Of a DNA stretch of 64,000 nucleotides, positions 4,093 to 60,885 are shown one piece after another (position 1 is the stretch's first letter; each line of letters starts with the position of its first letter). The DNA comes from Solen grandis (taxonomy: Eukaryota; Mollusca; Bivalvia; Adapedonta; Solenidae), in NCBI GenBank assembly GCA_021229015.1, contig CM037787.1, positions 39,751,037-39,815,036 of the forward strand, written 5' to 3'. The translations under genes were made by a program, and so were the position numbers. The notes under the pieces were generated by a model. That model did no database searches. It worked only from the letters and a program-made list of their open reading frames with translations, and was not told the DNA's origin.

Positions 4093-4190
4093 AACTGATG
4101 CAGAGCCAATTTCATCATAATTGCTTTTCTCATAAAAACACTTTAAAATTCAAATATTTCATTTCTTAAGAAAAACATAAATACTAGTTA

Positions 4191-4432
4191 TTAACCCTTT
4201 CCCTCAGAGAGGATACCATGAAAAGACCTATGCGAACAGCATAAAACCAGATCAGCCTGCGAGTAACTCGCAGGCTGATCAGGTTTTATGCTGTTCGCTG
4301 CTCCTCAGTGGTCTGGAAATGAGGATTTTACAATTAAATTTGGTAAGGTTTAAGTGTGGTTTTCTGCAGATCAGGCTTTATGTGGTACCTACTGAGTGCG
4401 TCAAAATGAGTCTATATGAGGGAAAGGGATAA
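4191..4432 (+). mobile_element. TTAA-type MITE copy B, full length
   Basis: A full-length copy starting TTAACCCTTTCCCTCAGA and ending ATGAGGGAAAGGGATAA (one change in the right TTAA). The central hairpin has arms around GCCTGCGAGT / ACTCGCAGGC, flanked by GAACAGCATAAAACC and GGTTTTATGCTGTTC. The opposite half carries the conserved block TTTCTGCAGATCAGGCTTTA. It lies 430 bp from copy A in opposite orientation. Confidence 0.92.
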
Positions 4433-9983: not shown

Positions 9984-10400
9984 TTTGCTGACTTAAACTG
10001 ACCAATCAGTGACTGGCGTAAAATTTCAAATGTATGTTTATTTCCCATTGAACAAAGTGTGGAATCAAACAGCAGCATGTAGATTAACCCTTTCCCTCAT
10101 ATAGACTCATTTTGACGCACTCAATAGGTACCACATAAAGCCTGATCTGCAGAAAACCACAGTTAAACCTTACCAAATTTAATTATAAAATCCTCATTTC
10201 CAGACCACTGAGGAGCAGCGAACAGCATAAAACCTGATCAGCCTGCGAGTTACTCGCAGGCTGATCTGGTTTTATGCTGTTTGCATAGGTCTTTTCATGG
10301 TGTCCTCTATGAGGGAAAGGGTTAAATGTTCCGGAAATGCTGCCTGATTTACAAAGGCTTATGTCTCATCTTGGGGTGAAATTGTCTATACTGGCATCAT
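9984..10400 (+). repeat. Paralogous segment interrupted by MITE copy C
   Basis: The flanks 9984-10083 and 10326-10400 together match the uninterrupted segment at 44480-44655 (GACCAATCAGTGACTGG, ATGTATGTTTATTTCC, AGCATGTAGATTA, then GTGAAATTGTCTA). The 44-kb copy reads AGATTAGGTGTTC where this copy reads AGATTAA, MITE, TTAAATGTTC. This is a natural empty site for the MITE. Confidence 0.75.
10084..10325 (-). mobile_element. TTAA-type MITE copy C, full length
   Basis: A full-length copy (TTAACCCTTTCCCTCATA to GAGGGAAAGGGTTAA) with a complete central hairpin and both TTAA sites. Its insertion point is proven by the empty paralogue at 44480-44655. Confidence 0.95.
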
Positions 10401-12423: not shown

Positions 12424-12664
12424 TTAACCCTTTCCCTCATATAGACTCATTTTGACACACTCAATAGGTACCACATAAAGCCTGATCTGCAGAAAGCCAA
12501 ACTCAAACCTTACCAAATTTAATTGTAAAATCCTCATTACCAGACCACTGAGGAGCAGCGAACAGCATAAAACCAGATCAGCCTGCGAGTTACTCGCAGG
12601 CTGATCTGGTTTTATGCTGTTCGCATAGGTCTTTTCAAGGTTTCCTCTATGACGGAAAGGGTTA
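12424..12664 (-). mobile_element. TTAA-type MITE copy D, perfect hairpin
   Basis: Full length. Unlike most copies, the hairpin stem is perfect at the position where others carry a mismatch (CCAGATC pairs with GATCTGG). The right terminus is slightly decayed (ATGACGGAAAGGGTTA). A minus-strand frame through it (12424-12669) is an artefact. Confidence 0.92.
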
Positions 12665-13084
12665 TACAAGTCAAAATTCTTAATTCATTGCGTTCTTTCA
12701 TGTAACCTACATTCAAATTTACACTTCCATTAGCTATATTTAACTCACAGCGTTCTCTAAGTAATTCCTTGACAACTGAAAATTCCACTGACAGGTATCT
12801 TTGTCTGCATACAATGGATGGCCTAATACAACCAGTACCCAACAATCAGATTATCTGGAATAAAAATCTTCTACAAATGAAATCTGATACTCCTTTATGA
12901 AACCGAACACACATGTGAATTAGCTTTTAAGGTTTTGTGACTAAGGATTTAGAGTGATAATGTACCAGCAGCCTAAATGTCCAAAGACAAACTGCTACAG
13001 TAAAAGCCCTGATATCTTACTCCATTAACCCAACAAATTACACAGTCAATCTTTGAGACCTGAATGTATTTACTTATTTATCTT

Positions 13085-13775: not shown

Positions 13776-14016
13776 TTAACCCTTTCCCTCATATAGACTC
13801 ATTTTGATGCACTCAATAGGTACCACATAAAGCCTGTTCTGCAGAAAACCACAGTTAAACCTTACCAGATTTGATTACAAAATCCTCATTTCCAGCCACT
13901 GAAGAGCAGCGAACAGCATAAAACCTGATCAGCCTGCGAGTTACTCGCAGGCTGATCTGGTTTTATGTTGTTCGCATAGGTCTTTTCATGGTTTCCTCTA
14001 TGAGGGAAAGGGTTAA
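13776..14016 (-). mobile_element. TTAA-type MITE copy F, full length
   Basis: Both TTAA ends and the hairpin are present. It lies 260 bp from copy E in opposite orientation, so E and F form a large inverted pair. Confidence 0.95.
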
Positions 14017-19850: not shown

Positions 19851-20016
19851 TAACTAAATTATAATCATAGTCCTTCAAATGCTTATAAAAATTTCAGTGA
19901 AGATGCAAGCATCCACTATCATGGAGTAATTGTTTTTATTGCTCTAAGTCTATAAAAGCTTGCATTCATTACAAAATTCCCACAATCACTTGATGGACCA
20001 TGATGAGAATTTAATG

Positions 20017-20164
20017 TGTAGCCGGGTACAGGTATTTGGTGATAAATCAATAGGCAATAAGACATGAGTGTCTCGATAGCTCAGTGGTAGAGCGCAGGAA
20101 CGGTAGTCCTGAGGCCCTGGGTTCGAGTCCCGGTCGAGCCATGATTTTTTCACCACCTGTTACA
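20017..20164 (+). repeat. 5' LTR of the TRIM
   Basis: 148 bp, TGTAGCCGGGTACAGG to CACCACCTGTTACA. It holds the tRNA-like unit at 20070-20141 and T6 at 20145-20150. There is no obvious TATA box; the internal Pol III boxes are the only recognisable promoter. Confidence 0.9.
20070..20141 (+). tRNA. tRNA-like gene inside the 5' LTR (anticodon position GGT)
   Basis: 72 nt fold by inspection into a complete cloverleaf. Acceptor GTCTCGA pairs with TCGAGCC (6 of 7), with discriminator A. The D arm is GCTC/GAGC with loop AGTGGTA, the anticodon stem CAGGA/TCCTG with loop ACGGTAG, the variable loop AGGCC, and the T arm CTGGG/CCCGG with loop TTCGAGT. A box TAGCTCAGTGG and B box GGTTCGAGTCC are canonical. 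T6 follows four bases later. Position 33 is C instead of the near-invariant U, so a decoding role is doubtful. It is more likely a co-opted Pol III promoter or structure. Confidence 0.75.
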
Positions 20165-20166
20165 TT

Positions 20167-20179
20167 TGGCGCCCAACGT
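20167..20179 (+). promoter_or_regulatory. Primer binding site, lysine-tRNA type
   Basis: TGGCGCCCAACGT starts 2 nt after the 5' LTR. Its complement ends in ...GGGCGCCA, the 3' end of the lysine tRNA used by many LTR elements. The match extends for 13 nt. Confidence 0.8.
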
Positions 20180-20198
20180 AAATAACCTACTGTTTGAT

Positions 20199-20324
20199 AT
20201 GGCTACTGCTTCGGCACCTCAAGAACTTTTCACAATGTTCTTTGTCTCAAAGAATTCGGGACGAATTCTAAATTTGGAGGGGGAATATGTAGCCGGGTAC
20301 AGGTATTTGGTGATAAATCAATAG
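20199..20324 (+). pseudogene. Residual short ORF of the TRIM interior (gag start relic?)
   Basis: A 41-codon frame begins MATASAPQEL and runs through the polypurine tract into the 3' LTR. The start resembles the opening of a Gag protein, and the rest (FVSKNSGRIL) is translated PPT-proximal sequence. This fits a large internal deletion of a parent gypsy-type element. No evidence that it is translated. Confidence 0.35.
20276..20285 (+). promoter_or_regulatory. Polypurine tract
   Basis: GGAGGGGGAA, two bases before the 3' LTR, where plus-strand DNA synthesis would be primed. Confidence 0.8.
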
Positions 20325-20435
20325 GCAATAAGACATGAGTGTCTCGATAGCTCAGTGGTAGAGCGCAGGAACGGTAGTCCTGAGGCCCTGGGTTCGAGTC
20401 CCGGTCGAGCCATGATTTTTTCACCACCTGTTACA
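20288..20435 (+). repeat. 3' LTR of the TRIM
   Basis: 148 bp, no difference from the 5' LTR seen by eye, and followed by AATG of the target duplication. Confidence 0.9.
20341..20412 (+). tRNA. tRNA-like gene inside the 3' LTR
   Basis: Same 72-nt cloverleaf as in the 5' LTR, with T6 at 20416-20421. Transcription from this copy would end inside the LTR. Confidence 0.72.
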
Positions 20436-20439
20436 AATG

Positions 20440-28357: not shown

Positions 28358-28594
28358 TTTATCCCTCATATAGACTCATTTTGAAGCACTCAATAGGTAC
28401 CACATAAAGCCTGATCTGCAGAAAACCACAGTTAAACCTTACCAAATTTAATTATAAAATCCTCATTTCCAGACCAATGAGGAGCAGCGAACAGCATAAA
28501 ACCTGATCAGCCTGCGAGTTACTCGCAGGCTGATCTGGTTATATGCTGTTCGCATAGGTCTTTTCATGGTATCCGCTATGAGGGAAAGGGTTAA
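28358..28594 (-). mobile_element. TTAA-type MITE copy G
   Basis: Right end intact (ATGAGGGAAAGGGTTAA). The left end is decayed to GTTTATCCCTCATATAG, so the left TTAA is lost. Central hairpin present. Confidence 0.9.
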
Positions 28595-35697: not shown

Positions 35698-35980
35698 CTC
35701 ACATACACCATGGTATCCCATAGAAAAAGCAAGATCTAACACAAACAATTTGCTTAGATTTACAGTGTCACCTCCTCAGCTCCAAGGTAATGAGAATCAA
35801 CAAACAACACATTAAAACCTGAACAGCCTGTTATTTACCCAAAAGGCAGATTTGGTTTTATACATGTCATGAAAGTCATTTTCTAGGTCGCTCTTGTGAA
35901 GATAAGCATTAAAGAGACTTGTATAACAGTAGCTAGTGACACTGTATACACTGGGACTCAATATATCTGCATTACGTTCA

Positions 35981-36216
35981 CTCTCCCTCATAGAGGACAC
36001 CATGAAAAGACCTATGCTAACAGCATAAAACCAGATCAGCCTGCGAGTAACTCGCAGGCTGATCAGGTTTTATGCTGTTCGCTGCTCCTCAGTGGTCTGG
36101 AAATGAGGATTTTGTAATTTAATTTGGTAAGGTTTGACTGTGGTTTTCTGCAGATCAGGCTTTATGTGATACCAATTGAGGGCGTCAAAATGAGTCTATA
36201 TGAGGGAAAGGGTTAA
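35981..36216 (+). mobile_element. TTAA-type MITE copy I, left end decayed
   Basis: Recognisable from CTCTCCCTCATAGAGG; the TTAACCC start is lost. The right end (TATGAGGGAAAGGGTTAA) and the hairpin are intact. The plus frame at 35896-36117 is translated MITE. Confidence 0.9.
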
Positions 36217-38310: not shown

Positions 38311-40806
38311 AATGGTCTATCTCTCAGCATCATTGAAATGGTCTATCTCTCAGCATCATTGAAATGGTCTATCTCTCAGCATCATTGAAATGGTCTATCT
38401 CTCAGCATCACTGAAATGGTCTATCTCTCAGCATCATTGAAATGGTCTATCTCTCAGCATCACTGAAATGGTCTATCTCTCAGCATCATTGAAATGGTCT
38501 ATCTCTCAGCATCATTGAAATGGTCTATCTCACTGAAATGGTCTATTTCTCAGCATCATTGAAATGGTCTATCTCTCTGCATCACTGAAATGGTCTATCT
38601 CTCAGCATCACTGAAATGATCTATCTCTCAGCATCACTGAAATGGTCAATCCCTCAGCACACTGAAATGATCTATCACTCAGCATCACTGAAATGGTCTA
38701 TCTCTCAGCATCACTGAAATGGTCTATCTCTCAGCATCACTGAAATGGTCTATCTCTCAGAATCACTGAAATGGTCTATCTCTCAGCATCACTGAAATGG
38801 TCTATCTCTCAGCATCATTGAAATGGTCTATCTCTCAGCATCATTGAAATGGTCTATCTCTCAGCATCACTGAAATGGTCTATCTCTAAGAACACTGAAA
38901 TGATCTATCACTCAGCATCACTGAAATGGTCTATCTCTCAGCATCACTGAAATGGTCTATCTCTCAGCATCACTGAAATGGTCTATCTCTCAGCATCACT
39001 GAAATGGTCTATCTCTCAACATCACTGAAATGGTATATCTCTCAGCATCACTGAAATGGTCTATCTCTCAGCATCACTGAAATGGTCTATCTCTCAGCAT
39101 CACTGAAATGGTCTATCTCTCAGCATCACTGAAATGGTCTATCTCTCAGCATCACTGAAATGGTCAATCTCTCAGCATCACTGAAATGGTCTATCTCTCA
39201 ACATCACTGAAATGGTATATCTCTCAGCATCACTGATATGGTCTATCTCTCAGCATCATTGAAATGGTCTATCTCTCAACATCATTAAAATGGTCTATCT
39301 CTCAACATCACTGAAATGGTCTATCTCTCAGCATCACTGAAATGGTCTATCTCTCAGCATCACTGAAATGGTCTATCTCTCAGCATCATTAAAATGGTCT
39401 ATCTCTCAGCATCACTGAAATGGTCTATCTCTCAGCATCACTGAAACTGAAATGGTCTATCTCTCAACATCACTGAAATGGTATATCTCTCAGCATCACT
39501 GATATGGTCTATCTCTCAGCATCATTGAAATGGTCTATCTCTCAACATCATTAAAATGGTCTATCTCTCAACATCACTGAAATGGTCTATCTCTCAGCAT
39601 CACTGAAATGGTCTATCTCTCAGCATCACTGAAATGGTCTATCTCTCAGCATCACTGAAATGGTGTCTCTCTCAGCATCACTGAAATGGTCAATCTCTCA
39701 GCATCACTGAAATGGTCAATCTCTCAGCATCACTGAAATGATCTATCTCTCAGCATCACTGAAATGGTCAATCCCTCAGCACACTGAAATGATCTATCAC
39801 TCAGCATCACTGAAATGGTCTATCTCCCAGCATCACTGAAATGGTCTATCTCTCAGCATCACTGAAATGGTCTATCTCTCAGCATCACTGAAATGGTCTA
39901 TCTCTCAACATCACTGAAATGGTATATCTCTCAGCATCACTGATATGGTCTATCTCTCAGCATCATTGAAATGGTCTATCTCTCAACATCATTAAAATGG
40001 TCTATCTCTCAACATCACTGAAATGGTCTATCTCTCAGCATCACTGAAATGGTCTATCTCTCAGCATCACTGAAATGGTCTATCTCTCAGCATGACTGAA
40101 ATGGTCTATCTCTCAGCATCATTTAAATGGTCTATCTCTCAACATCACTGAAATAGTCTATCTCTCAACATCACTGAAATGGTCTATCTCTCAGCATCAT
40201 TAAAATGGTCTATTTCTTAGCATCACTGAAATGGTCTATCTCTCAGCATCACTGAAATGGTCTATCTCTCAACATCATTGAAATGGTCTATCTCTCTGCA
40301 TCACTGAAATGGTCTATCTCTCAGCATCACTGAAATGGTCAATCTCTCAGCATCACTGAAATGGTCTATCTCTCAACATCATTGAAATGGTCTATCTCTC
40401 ATCATCACTGAAATGGTCTATCTCTCAACATCATTGAAATGGTCTATCTCTCAGCATCACTGAAATGGTCTATCTCTCAACATCATTGAAATGGTCTATC
40501 TCTCAACATCATAGAAATGGTCTATCTCTCAGCATCATTGAAATGGTCTATCTCTCAACATCACTGAAATGGTCTATCTCTCAGCATCACTGAAATGGTC
40601 TATCTCTCAGCATCATTGAAATGGTCTATCTCTCAACATCATTGAAATGGTCTATCTCTCAACATCATTGAAATGGTCTATCTCTCAACATCATTGAAAT
40701 GGTCTATCTCTCAGCATCACTGCAATGGTCTATCTCTCAGCATCATAGAAATGGTCTATCTCTCAACATCATTGAAATGGTCTATTCATCATGAAATGGT
40801 CTATCA
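38311..40806. repeat. Large minisatellite, 26-bp unit, about 95 copies
   Basis: Unit GAAATGGTCTATCTCTCAGC plus ATCACT, spanning 2.5 kb. Variants (ATCATT, AACATC, TGATCTATCACTCAG, GATATGG) are not random. A block with CAGCACACTGAAATGATC recurs about 1.12 kb apart (about 38655 and 39775), and a GATATGG...AACATCATTAAAATGG block occurs near 39235, 39500 and 39945, showing higher-order duplication. Because 26 is not a multiple of 3, no long frame persists. Confidence 0.96.
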
Positions 40807-41450: not shown

Positions 41451-41691
41451 TTAACCCTTTCCCTCATATAGACTCATTTTGACACACTCAATAGGTACCA
41501 CATAAAGCCTGATCTGCAGAAAGCCAAACTCAAACCTTACCAAATTTAATTGTAAAATCCTCATTACCAGACCACTGAGGAGCAGCGAACCGCATAAAAC
41601 CTGATCAGCCTGCGAGTTACTCGCAGGCTGATCTGGTTTTATGCTGTTCGCATAGGTCTTTTCATGTTTCCTCTATGAGGGAAAGGGTTAA
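41451..41691 (-). mobile_element. TTAA-type MITE copy J, full length
   Basis: Both TTAA ends and the full hairpin. It shares the diagnostic variant GAAAGCCAAACTCAAACC with copy D (12424), so D and J form a subfamily. Confidence 0.94.
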
Positions 41692-48340: not shown

Positions 48341-48582
48341 TTAACCCTTTCCCTAATAGAGGAAACCATGAAAAGACCTATGCGAACAGCATTAAACCAG
48401 ATCAGCCTGCGAGTAACTCGCAGGCTGATCAGGTTTTATGTTGTTCGCTACTCCTCAGTGGTCTGGAGATGAGGATTCTGTAATTAAATTTGGTAATGTT
48501 TAACTGTGGTTTTCTGTAGATCAGGCTTTATGTGATACCTATTGAGGGCGTCAAAATGAGTCTATATGAGGGAAAGGGTTAA
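48341..48582 (+). mobile_element. TTAA-type MITE copy K, full length
   Basis: TTAACCCTTTCCCTAATAGA to TATGAGGGAAAGGGTTAA. It sits only 53 bp downstream (in gene direction) of the NPDC1-like exon at 48635, close to its splice donor. Confidence 0.94.
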
Positions 48583-49484: not shown

Positions 49485-50648
49485 TTTGCTGTGAACCTGT
49501 GTTTTTGCATCAAATGGAAAACTTACACTAATCCCCTGTGACAAATTTGTCATAATTAGATATCCTGGTAGACATTCGTATTTTCCAAACAACTATTAAA
49601 CACTTGATTTTTTATTTTAAATATTAAATACTTTTGTGATAAAGTGGGATAATAACATTAAATCAAGAAATTTTGGTGCCATGACCAGGATTTTTGGGCT
49701 ACGATCTCATAGCGCAATGCATAATTGTGTTAGGTTCGCCATACCTGGCATGTGTTTTGTATGCCAAATCGTATGCAACTTTAGTTGTCTTCAGACTATA
49801 TACCATGCTGTTCTCGTGCATCTTATGCTGCAGTTAGGTATACTTGAACATCATGGTTTATGACACTGAGACATCTTCATAGCAGACTGTAAGCCTACGG
49901 TTGCATACGGTTCAGCATACTGAACGCACGCCTGTATTTAACATCAAATATATATATAAATAATACAAAGGAAGTGACGTCATGGCACCAAAGCATCACT
50001 GAATGTCATGCACAATTGCGCAATGTCAACATTATTCCTGACAAACTGTTATATACTGGCTCCTGCAGGGAGAAAGACGGCTTTGCATAAGAAAATGATC
50101 AGTATAGCCTATTTTTATATGTCAATGAGAAAAACACGTATTTCTGGAGATCAATATTTAAGGAAACAAAATTACTGATACAATCTTGAACTTTCAATGA
50201 GGATGCTAACATTGCCTGATTTGAAAAAGTTTAGAGGCTTCAATCAGATTCAACTTGAATCCCATTACTATTAAACAAGATCTGGTCTCCAATGGAAACA
50301 AGTCCCAGCCCTCCAACCTAAACCCCATGAAGATAACCTAGCTATCCATCAGGAACTTTACAGAATGCTGCAAATAATCAGCAAATGAGCACAAAAACAT
50401 TCAGAGGTGCAAAACCATTAATTACAAGCTGCAAAGCTGCAATCTCTCTTCCATTGAAAAGGAAAAAATGTTACCTTAATGGCAGGACTACTTCCTCTGA
50501 ATCCTGTTTCATTTATACTAATTTTAGCTAGCTGTAATTAGCTTGCGACTAATTGGTAAAATAAATGTCAAGTCATAAAACCAGAAAGTGTCCGGACAGT
50601 GTACTTGTACTGCATTTTGCTACTCACATAATGTGTCCTGGCTTGAAT
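49485..50648. other. Unannotated DNA
   Basis: No supportable gene. The 75-codon plus frame at 49636-49863 is Cys/His-containing but matches no finger spacing. Confidence 0.4.
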
Positions 50649-50879
50649 TCTTCCCTCATAGAGGAAACCATGAAAAGACTTATGCGAACAACATAAAACC
50701 AGATCAGCCTGCGAGTAACTTGCAGGCTGATCAGGTTTTATGCTGTTCACTACTCCTCAGTGGTCTGGAAATGAGGACTTTATAATTTGGTAAGGTTTAA
50801 CTGTGGTTTTCTGCAGATCAGGCTTTATGTGGTACCTATTGAGTGCGTCAAAATGAGTCTATATGAGGGAAAGGGTTAA
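50649..50879 (+). mobile_element. TTAA-type MITE copy L, left end truncated
   Basis: Starts abruptly at TTCCCTCATAGAGGAAACC after GGCTTGAATTC. The right end is intact (GAGGGAAAGGGTTAA). Hairpin present with one change (AACTTGC). Frames at 50568-50785 are translated MITE. Confidence 0.9.
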
Positions 50880-56360: not shown

Positions 56361-56705
56361 TTGATATATTAAGATTAATCCAATGGATTTTTTCAGCAAA
56401 TCGTGTGTAATATTTTCCAAGTGCTCTTCATGTCTGCATTGGTCAGTACATGTGTATAAGCTATAAGATAAATAGGATCTGACATGAATTGTTTTTACCA
56501 AACGAGCTCGTGAAAATGTTACTAAGCGAGCCACTTATCAGACCTATACTGATTGTAGATCGCGTTTCGTCGTCATGATATCAGTCAAATACAGCTAGGC
56601 GTTAAATTTCCGTTTTGAACGTGGGGCTCGTGCACGCGGAACGGTAAACGGATGTCATCAGTGATCACACAGTGAAATTCACAACTAAAGTTGACAAGGT
56701 TTACA

Positions 56706-57655
56706 ATGCCACGGTTGTCAAAAGCCGAAAGAAATAGGGCTATTGGAATGCTCCAGGGCGGTGCTTCCGTTGTCAACGTTAGCAGAATTTTTAACTGCCG
56801 CCGCAACACAATTCATGAGCTTGTTAGACGTTTTATACAAACAGGTGGTGTGTCCGATCATCCCAGGTCAGGTAGACCGAGGGCAAGTACCCGAAGGGGT
56901 GATCGTGCCATTATATTAATGCACTTACGTAACCGCTTCAGACCCACGACGTTTACGGTACCTTTGTTTAACGTAAGTGCTCAAACTATTCGCAATAGGT
57001 TACGCACCCAATTAGAGCCCGACGCCCATATACCGGTGGTATACTGACATTACGCCATCGTCAGGCCCGTATGGCATGGGCACGTGCCCACCGTGACTGG
57101 AACACTGTCCTGTTTTCGGACGAATCGCGATTCAATCTGAGTAATGCCGACGGCCTCACATAAGTCTATTGCCGGCAAGGTGAACGGTTCGCGCCCGTCT
57201 GTGGTGGTGGTGGTGACGTAATGGTAGGGGGGGGGGGGGAGAAAACCCGACTGATCGTTCTGCGAGGCAACTTAAATGCCCAAGGGTACATTAACAAAAT
57301 TTTAAATGCAGAAGCTATTCCGTTTTCGAGAATAAATGCTCCAGGTGTTTTCCAGCAGGATAATGTCAGTCCCCACACAGCAAGAATTACACGCGCTCAC
57401 TTAGCAGCAGCAAACGTTAACGTCATGCAATGGACAGCAATGACTCCGGATATGAATCCAATAGAGCATATCTGGGACGGGTTTGGCAGAAACTTTCGCT
57501 AAAGACATGCTCCACAAAATATCCAAGAGCTGACAAATGCATTGATTCATGAATGGAACAATCTTCCCAACGGACTTGTACAACCTTACGTCAATTCGAT
57601 GAGACGATGCGTGGATACACTCATTAGAGCTAGAGGTGCTCACGTCCGATATTGA
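56706..57655 (+). pseudogene. Tc1-like (DD34E) transposase pseudogene
   Basis: Starts MPRLSKAERNRAIGMLQGGA with a helix-turn-helix (NVSRIFNCRRNTIHELVRRF), then a second half (VSDHPRSGRPRAS). After a frameshift near 57040 comes WNTVLFSDESRFNL with the first catalytic Asp. A stop lies near 57163 and a second shift at the G-run near 57229. Then FQQDNVSPHTA (second Asp) and MNPIEHIWD (Glu), 34 residues apart, as in Tc1. A stop near 57500 precedes a tail ending RGAHVRY. The domain order is complete but at least two stops and two shifts disable it. The terminal inverted repeats were not identified. Confidence 0.9.
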
Positions 57656-60074: not shown

Positions 60075-60340
60075 ATAATTATCTCCCTCTTTTTCTTTGA
60101 AAAAGGAAACGACCCAGGGCCTTTCGCTTACGGGGCGAATGCTCTACCTTCTGAGCTACCCGGCCGCTTACATATCATTCTCCCCTATTGTGAGTTATCG
60201 GAACTGTGACATTATCCCCCTCCATTTTAGAATTCGTCCCTGAATTCTAGGAGTTACAGGGTAAATATAACCATGTGCAGGTGTCTTCGACATACCTAGC
60301 ACCGATACCACAGTCCCACAGGCGCCATTTGTAACGGGGT
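60075..60340 (-). mobile_element. Second, diverged tRNA-carrying LTR/TRIM-like element (partial)
   Basis: Read on the minus strand: an LTR end CCGTTACA, then AATGGCGCCTGTGGGAC (primer-site-like), an interior of about 120 bp ending GGGACGAATTCTAAAATGG-AGGGGGATAA, then TGTCACAGTTCCG as the start of the 3' LTR (60211 downwards), which contains a tRNA-like sequence. The interior end shares GAATTC.GGGACGAATTCTA-A.TGGAGGGGG with the TRIM at 20017. The outer limits of both LTRs are not found and no second tRNA-like copy is visible, so it is incomplete or strongly diverged. Confidence 0.5.
60100..60168 (-). pseudogene. tRNA-like sequence in the second element (anticodon position CGT)
   Basis: Minus strand: GGGTAGCTCAGAAGGTAGAG (good A box), anticodon stem TTCGC/GCGAA with loop CCCGTAA, variable loop AGGCC, then CTGGGTCGTTTCC in place of the T arm and a T5 run. 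The T arm is truncated. C at position 33, the variable loop AGGCC and the CTGGG stem are shared with the tRNA-like unit of the 20-kb TRIM. Confidence 0.6.
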
Positions 60341-60885
60341 CATGGAGAACAACAACTCCTGGGTTCCCTTTCATACATTTATTCGAGTATAAATCATACT
60401 GAATATTGTTAGAGGGCCTGGAAACAGATTATAAAACAATAATAAATACATATGAATTGGATTCAGGCAATTCAAAATAGCAGACGCGTTGAAATAAAAA
60501 TACATCTCAAAAATTTATCAAAGTATCTCAGGATATAAATTATAGCACTTACCAGCACTAACTTATTAGAACGACATTACGCCTCTAGTCTGGGAAACTA
60601 CAATAAAGTGGGTACATTGATCTTGACTTTGGGAAAGTCTGATTCCGAAGTGACAGAACAGAAGGGAAATTCATATTTATATGGTCAGGGACAAAGGATT
60701 AAAATCTCACTCACTCAACAATCACCAAAACCATGCACGCTGTACAAACATAATCAGTTGACATAACACAGTTCACAGTGACATGACATTGTGCACATGA
60801 ACAGTTCACAATTCACAACAGACACGACAGAATAATCCAATACAAAATAAACAAGCATATCAATTTAACAAAGACTCCTTTACAA
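60341..60885. other. Unannotated DNA, possible 5' LTR of the second element
   Basis: TTTATTCGAG near 60381 would be a polyadenylation signal on the minus strand close to the LTR end. The rest shows nothing. Confidence 0.35.

Follow-up and report, generated by a model that had tools for sequence, protein, structure and literature searches.

The 64,000 nucleotides of DNA analysed here, referred to as the window, contain at positions 20017-20435 two direct repeats that each enclose a sequence resembling a tRNA gene. The question raised by this locus is whether it represents a tandemly duplicated tRNA gene or a small LTR retrotransposon, and, if the latter, whether the tRNA-like sequences serve as Pol III promoters within its LTRs. 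The first-pass annotation had proposed a miniature element comparable to the Cassandra TRIMs, with a tRNA-gene-like unit in place in each LTR, and the anatomy of the locus supports this comparison well.

Structure of the element

The element is 419 bp in total length, and its features, together with the flanking duplications, are as follows.

20013..20016, no strand: left target-site duplication, AATG, from LTR comparison
20017..20164, plus strand: 5' LTR, 148 bp, ends TG...CA, identical to the 3' LTR
20070..20141, plus strand: tRNA-like unit of the 5' LTR, 72 nt, anticodon read as GGT (Thr), from Rfam, ARAGORN and the Pol III boxes
20145..20150, plus strand: T6 run of the 5' LTR, candidate Pol III terminator, from the sequence
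20165..20287, plus strand: interior, 123 bp, between the two LTRs
20167..20179, plus strand: primer-binding site TGGCGCCCAACGT, 13 nt, 2 bases (TT) inside the 5' LTR
20276..20285, plus strand: polypurine tract GGAGGGGGAA, 2 bases (TA) ahead of the 3' LTR
20288..20435, plus strand: 3' LTR, 148 bp, identical to the 5' LTR
20341..20412, plus strand: tRNA-like unit of the 3' LTR, 72 nt, from Rfam and ARAGORN
20416..20421, plus strand: T6 run of the 3' LTR, from the sequence
20436..20439, no strand: right target-site duplication, AATG, from LTR comparison

Most of the structural claims made earlier held up, as alignment of the two repeats found 148/148 bases identical, TG...CA ends are present on both LTRs, and AATG lies directly outside each of them. 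A separate repeat detection returned a direct repeat of 152 nt at 99%, in which the single mismatch is that between the outer AATG and AATA. With a local G+C of 36%, the chance of a four-base match at one given place is about 1 in 190. Since the LTRs are identical, the insertion is, on this sequence measure, recent, with an LTR divergence of at most about 2% (rule of three on 0/148). The primer site and the polypurine tract had been described as lying immediately inside the first repeat and immediately before the second, respectively; both are present, but each is set off from its LTR by two nucleotides (TT and TA) and is not strictly immediate. We take TGGCGCCCAACGT to be a primer site of the tRNA-Lys type.

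Judging from its reading frames, the element is without sense-strand coding capacity to speak of. No sense-strand open frame of at least 65 aa was found in the interior, and the two open frames of at least 65 aa across the element (66 and 75 aa) are antisense; a database search with the 66-aa frame gave no relative. A sense frame of 41 codons (20199-20324, MATASAPQELF...) begins 19 nt past the primer site and enters the 3' LTR, and it is conceivably a relic of the gag start of a partner element.

tRNA-like units and Pol III signals

A run of a tRNA covariance model on the LTR, which had been suggested as a check, favoured the tRNA assignment, as both units match Rfam RF00005 with 55.2 bits against a gathering score of 29 (E 3.8e-9). 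ARAGORN likewise reports tRNA-Thr(GGT) at 20069-20142 and 20340-20413. The description of each unit as a complete 72-nt cloverleaf stands only in part: the covariance model supports a tRNA, but minimum-free-energy folding of the 72-mer yields no cloverleaf (z -0.55, with 50/200 shuffles equally or more stable), and the second acceptor pair (2:71) is a T-C mismatch. As far as these models go, the tRNA reading is supported by the covariance model rather than by free energy. The anticodon loop, ACGGTAG, has a C at the place of U33 (position 33). Because of this C and the mismatch at 2:71, the sequence suggests that the unit is a Pol III promoter module and not a working tRNA.

In the unit of the 5' LTR, the A box TAGCTCAGTGG starts at 20077 and the B box GGTTCGAGTCC at 20120. 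Both fit the consensus sequences used in our scan, which we presume to be those of the canonical boxes, in agreement with the earlier claim of such boxes in each repeat. Single matches to these consensus sequences occur elsewhere in the window as well (A box: 16 on the plus and 24 on the minus strand; B box: 2 and 1, the LTR units included), and pairs of an A and a B box 30-70 nt apart, counted on both strands, number two, which are the two LTR units. The T6 run noticed earlier in each repeat was also found. On its boxes and T6 runs only, the element is a predicted candidate for a TRIMp3, that is, a Pol III-transcribed TRIM.

Three tRNA matches were obtained with Rfam in the 64-kb window at the gathering score, and relaxing the cut-off to E 1 added none; two lie in the 419-bp element and the third in the decayed relative described below.

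Assignment to Helenus

The suggestion that such an element might be new did not survive comparison with the literature. TRIMs with tRNA-derived sequence in their LTRs were named Helenus by Kojima in 2024 as a counterpart of Cassandra, and 51 families were described from bivalves (PMC10886601), so that the kind of element is already known, bivalves included. Helenus elements range from 311 to 1263 bp in length, those of animals generate 4-bp duplications, the primers of bivalve families include tRNA-Lys among others, and seven bivalve families can encode tRNA-Thr (PMC10886601). Molluscan Helenus have been reported from Pteriomorphia, and mobilisation of animal Helenus by Gypsy elements was inferred by Kojima (PMC10886601).

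The present locus resembles these elements in being a TRIM with a tRNA-like unit in both LTRs, a primer-binding site, a polypurine tract and no proteins. Its length falls within the published range, the AATG duplication (one insertion) equals the animal Helenus duplication in size, its unit is of the Thr type as in the seven families, and its 13-nt site, which we assume to be of the Lys type, would agree with the use of tRNA-Lys among the bivalve primers. No difference from the bivalve families was found when descriptions, as opposed to consensus sequences, were compared. Set by description and not by consensus letters, the assignment of the 419-bp element to animal Helenus is almost certain. 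A literature search on TRIMs in bivalves and on tRNA-carrying TRIMs found no further description of the kind in titles and abstract openings, and no Helenus report tied to 'Veneri'; Helenus also figures, along with the term retrotransposon, in a 2026 meeting report.

Two other groups of TRIMs are comparable. Plant Cassandra, according to the accessible parts of its descriptions, is likewise a TRIM whose LTRs each contain a Pol III gene together with a terminator (PMC7215508, PMC10886601). Its unit is a 5S rRNA, whereas that of the present element is tRNA-like, and membership in Cassandra was rejected, as the LTR has a tRNA and no 5S by Rfam at the gathering score. Ajax, of nemerteans, also belongs to the TRIMs and is presumed to have a Pol III promoter in its LTR, but it differs from the 419-bp element in having a partial 5S unit, a 5-bp duplication and a tRNA-Leu primer (PMC10886601).

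A decayed relative in the same window

Further copies within the 64-kb window amount to one decayed relative, located 40 kb away on the opposite strand.

60110..60345 (about), minus strand: decayed relative, from interior match, junction, Rfam tRNA and reading of the locus
to 60330, minus strand: end of its 5' LTR, from reading of the locus
60329-60212, minus strand: its interior, 118 nt, from reading of the locus
60211, minus strand: start of its 3' LTR, from reading of the locus
60165-60110, minus strand: its tRNA-like unit, broken in the B box, from Rfam

When the interior of the 419-bp element was compared with the window by blast, a single significant non-self match was obtained, at 60248-60215 on the minus strand. 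It covers the polypurine block, at 91% across 35 nt (E 9e-7), and scores 43.7 bits, as against a top score of 32.8 bits in 100 dinucleotide-shuffled windows. The junction of LTR end and primer site, TTACANNTGGCGCC, has its sole second occurrence in the window next to this match, within the relative; with up to one mismatch, 0.08 occurrences are expected and two matches were seen in 1/100 shuffles, for a pattern composed after both loci had been read. A pattern for the polypurine block was composed after viewing both blocks and is circular, and the 419-bp element needs 3 mismatches to fit it, owing to a one-base length difference; the blast match and its shuffle test are independent of this pattern.

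The tRNA-like unit of the relative, which bears an A box, begins 46 nt into the LTR, compared with 53 nt in the 419-bp element. Its Rfam match (29.1 bits, E 0.056) barely reaches the gathering score, and ARAGORN does not list the unit at 60165-60110. Most of the 5' LTR is unrecognisable, and the LTR shows little likeness to that of the 419-bp element beyond the tRNA-like part. We read 60345-60110 as probably the remains of a further Helenus-type element, from a different family. Predictions of tRNA genes in such genomes can thus be transposons, as 3/3 Rfam tRNA matches in the window are of the Helenus type.

Transcription, replication and alternative explanations

The preferred explanation, which we regard as very probable, is that of an animal Helenus, a non-autonomous TRIM each of whose LTRs carries a Pol III promoter of tRNA origin. 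From the arrangement of boxes and T6 runs, Pol III transcription is predicted to start and to stop within the LTR. It would start in the 5' LTR, with its tRNA-like unit or slightly upstream of it, near 20070, and most of the RNAs may end at the first T6. An RNA ending there could not be a template for retrotransposition; the useful RNAs would run past this T6 and end at the second T6, in the 3' LTR. The repeated end (R) of such a read-through RNA would be about 75-81 nt, corresponding to the tRNA-like unit itself, with a U3 of about 53 nt and a U5 of about 14 nt. Reverse transcription would presumably be primed by host tRNA-Lys, and the proteins would be supplied in trans by a Gypsy-type element. 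The tRNA-like unit would then act as a promoter, and a role as a functional tRNA is improbable. Self-priming by this unit was considered and rejected, because what the primer site has in common with the 3' end of the unit is limited to TGGC.

A precedent for read-through may be found by analogy in Cassandra RNA, which is said to begin within the 5S sequence of the 5' LTR and to finish within its counterpart in the 3' LTR (PMC10886601); the ends of that RNA are said to repeat only 18 bp, in contrast to the 75-81 nt predicted here. Against the model, the first T6 (20145-20150) is expected to stop Pol III before the primer site. On the particular point that Pol III read-through RNA is the template for retrotransposition, the arguments appear evenly balanced. 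A more specific version, with a host outside Pteriomorphia and a T6 that splits transcription into abundant tRNA-sized RNA and rare read-through RNA whose R is wholly tRNA-like, is rather doubtful. If the host does lie outside Pteriomorphia, the range of Helenus would be widened. The LTR element at this locus, presumably promoted by Pol III, is complete and young-looking (0/148 LTR differences), and would therefore be suited to testing the transcription of Helenus by Pol III and the passage of its own terminator.

The same T6, which would block Pol III ahead of the primer site, speaks for an ordinary Pol II TRIM. Under that alternative, an ancestral LTR was struck by a tRNA-derived SINE and the tRNA-like unit is a passenger, and it gains from the origin of Helenus by SINE insertion into an LTR that Kojima proposed, and from his statement that the Pol III function of Helenus is not yet experimentally shown (PMC10886601). 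However, AATAAA, ATTAAA, TATAAA and TATATA are all absent from the LTR, and the diverged relative keeps its A-box-bearing unit at a like place (46 versus 53 nt). The A and B boxes, moreover, both fit what we take to be their consensus. A Pol II element of this kind is accordingly judged unlikely.

A real tRNA-Thr gene, tandemly duplicated with no retrotransposition, would agree with the two Thr-GGT calls of ARAGORN, but it would leave the TG...CA ends, the primer site, the polypurine tract, the flanking AATG and the existence, 40 kb off, of a relative that shares its junctions without a place. A GGT anticodon for Thr is seldom used in eukaryotes, and the C at position 33 and the T-C at 2:71 also count against such a gene. 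The ability of the seven bivalve Helenus families mentioned above to encode tRNA-Thr (PMC10886601) counts in its favour. On the whole, this explanation is highly improbable. Finally, biv-TRIM, published in 2019, demonstrates that a TRIM was already known from bivalves, but in the accessible part of its description it has repeats of 202-218 bp (148 bp here), an interior of 77-80 bp (123 bp here), the polypurine tract GGGGAGA (GGAGGGGGAA here) and no clear primer site (clear here) (PMC6934838), and its TDR F primer is unmatched in the window at up to 3 mismatches. Membership in biv-TRIM was rejected and has next to no probability.

Other elements in the window and wider searches

Exact-pattern searches of viral and prokaryote contig collections and a distant blastn search in phages gave no match, and both are uninformative on the family. 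Pfam families were found in 3/10 open frames of the window, all of them of transposon type. A Gypsy-type RNase H fragment (Pfam RT_RNaseH) at 1224-1592 adjoins an N gap and has 22 relatives in a database search, and a broken Tc1-like transposase occupies 56676-57502 in two frames, with HTH and DDE_3 matches that are each under the Pfam cut-off. A tandem array with a 26-bp unit in about 95 copies extends over 38311-40785.

The mir-1253 model gave nine matches below its gathering score, in seven places (4224-4304, 10212-10292, 12548-12638, 13900-13988, 28478-28564, 48374-48454 and 50680-50760), two of which are matched on both strands. Three of these matches overlap a repeated open frame, KTYANSIKPDQPASNSQADQ..., and the mir-1253-type matches are probably a palindromic MITE family and not microRNA genes. 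Five open frames in both orientations (4181-4432, 12424-12684, 35887-36117, 41451-41672 and 50579-50785) share near-identical stretches (KTYANSIKPDQPASN.QADQVLC...) and represent a high-copy host repeat.
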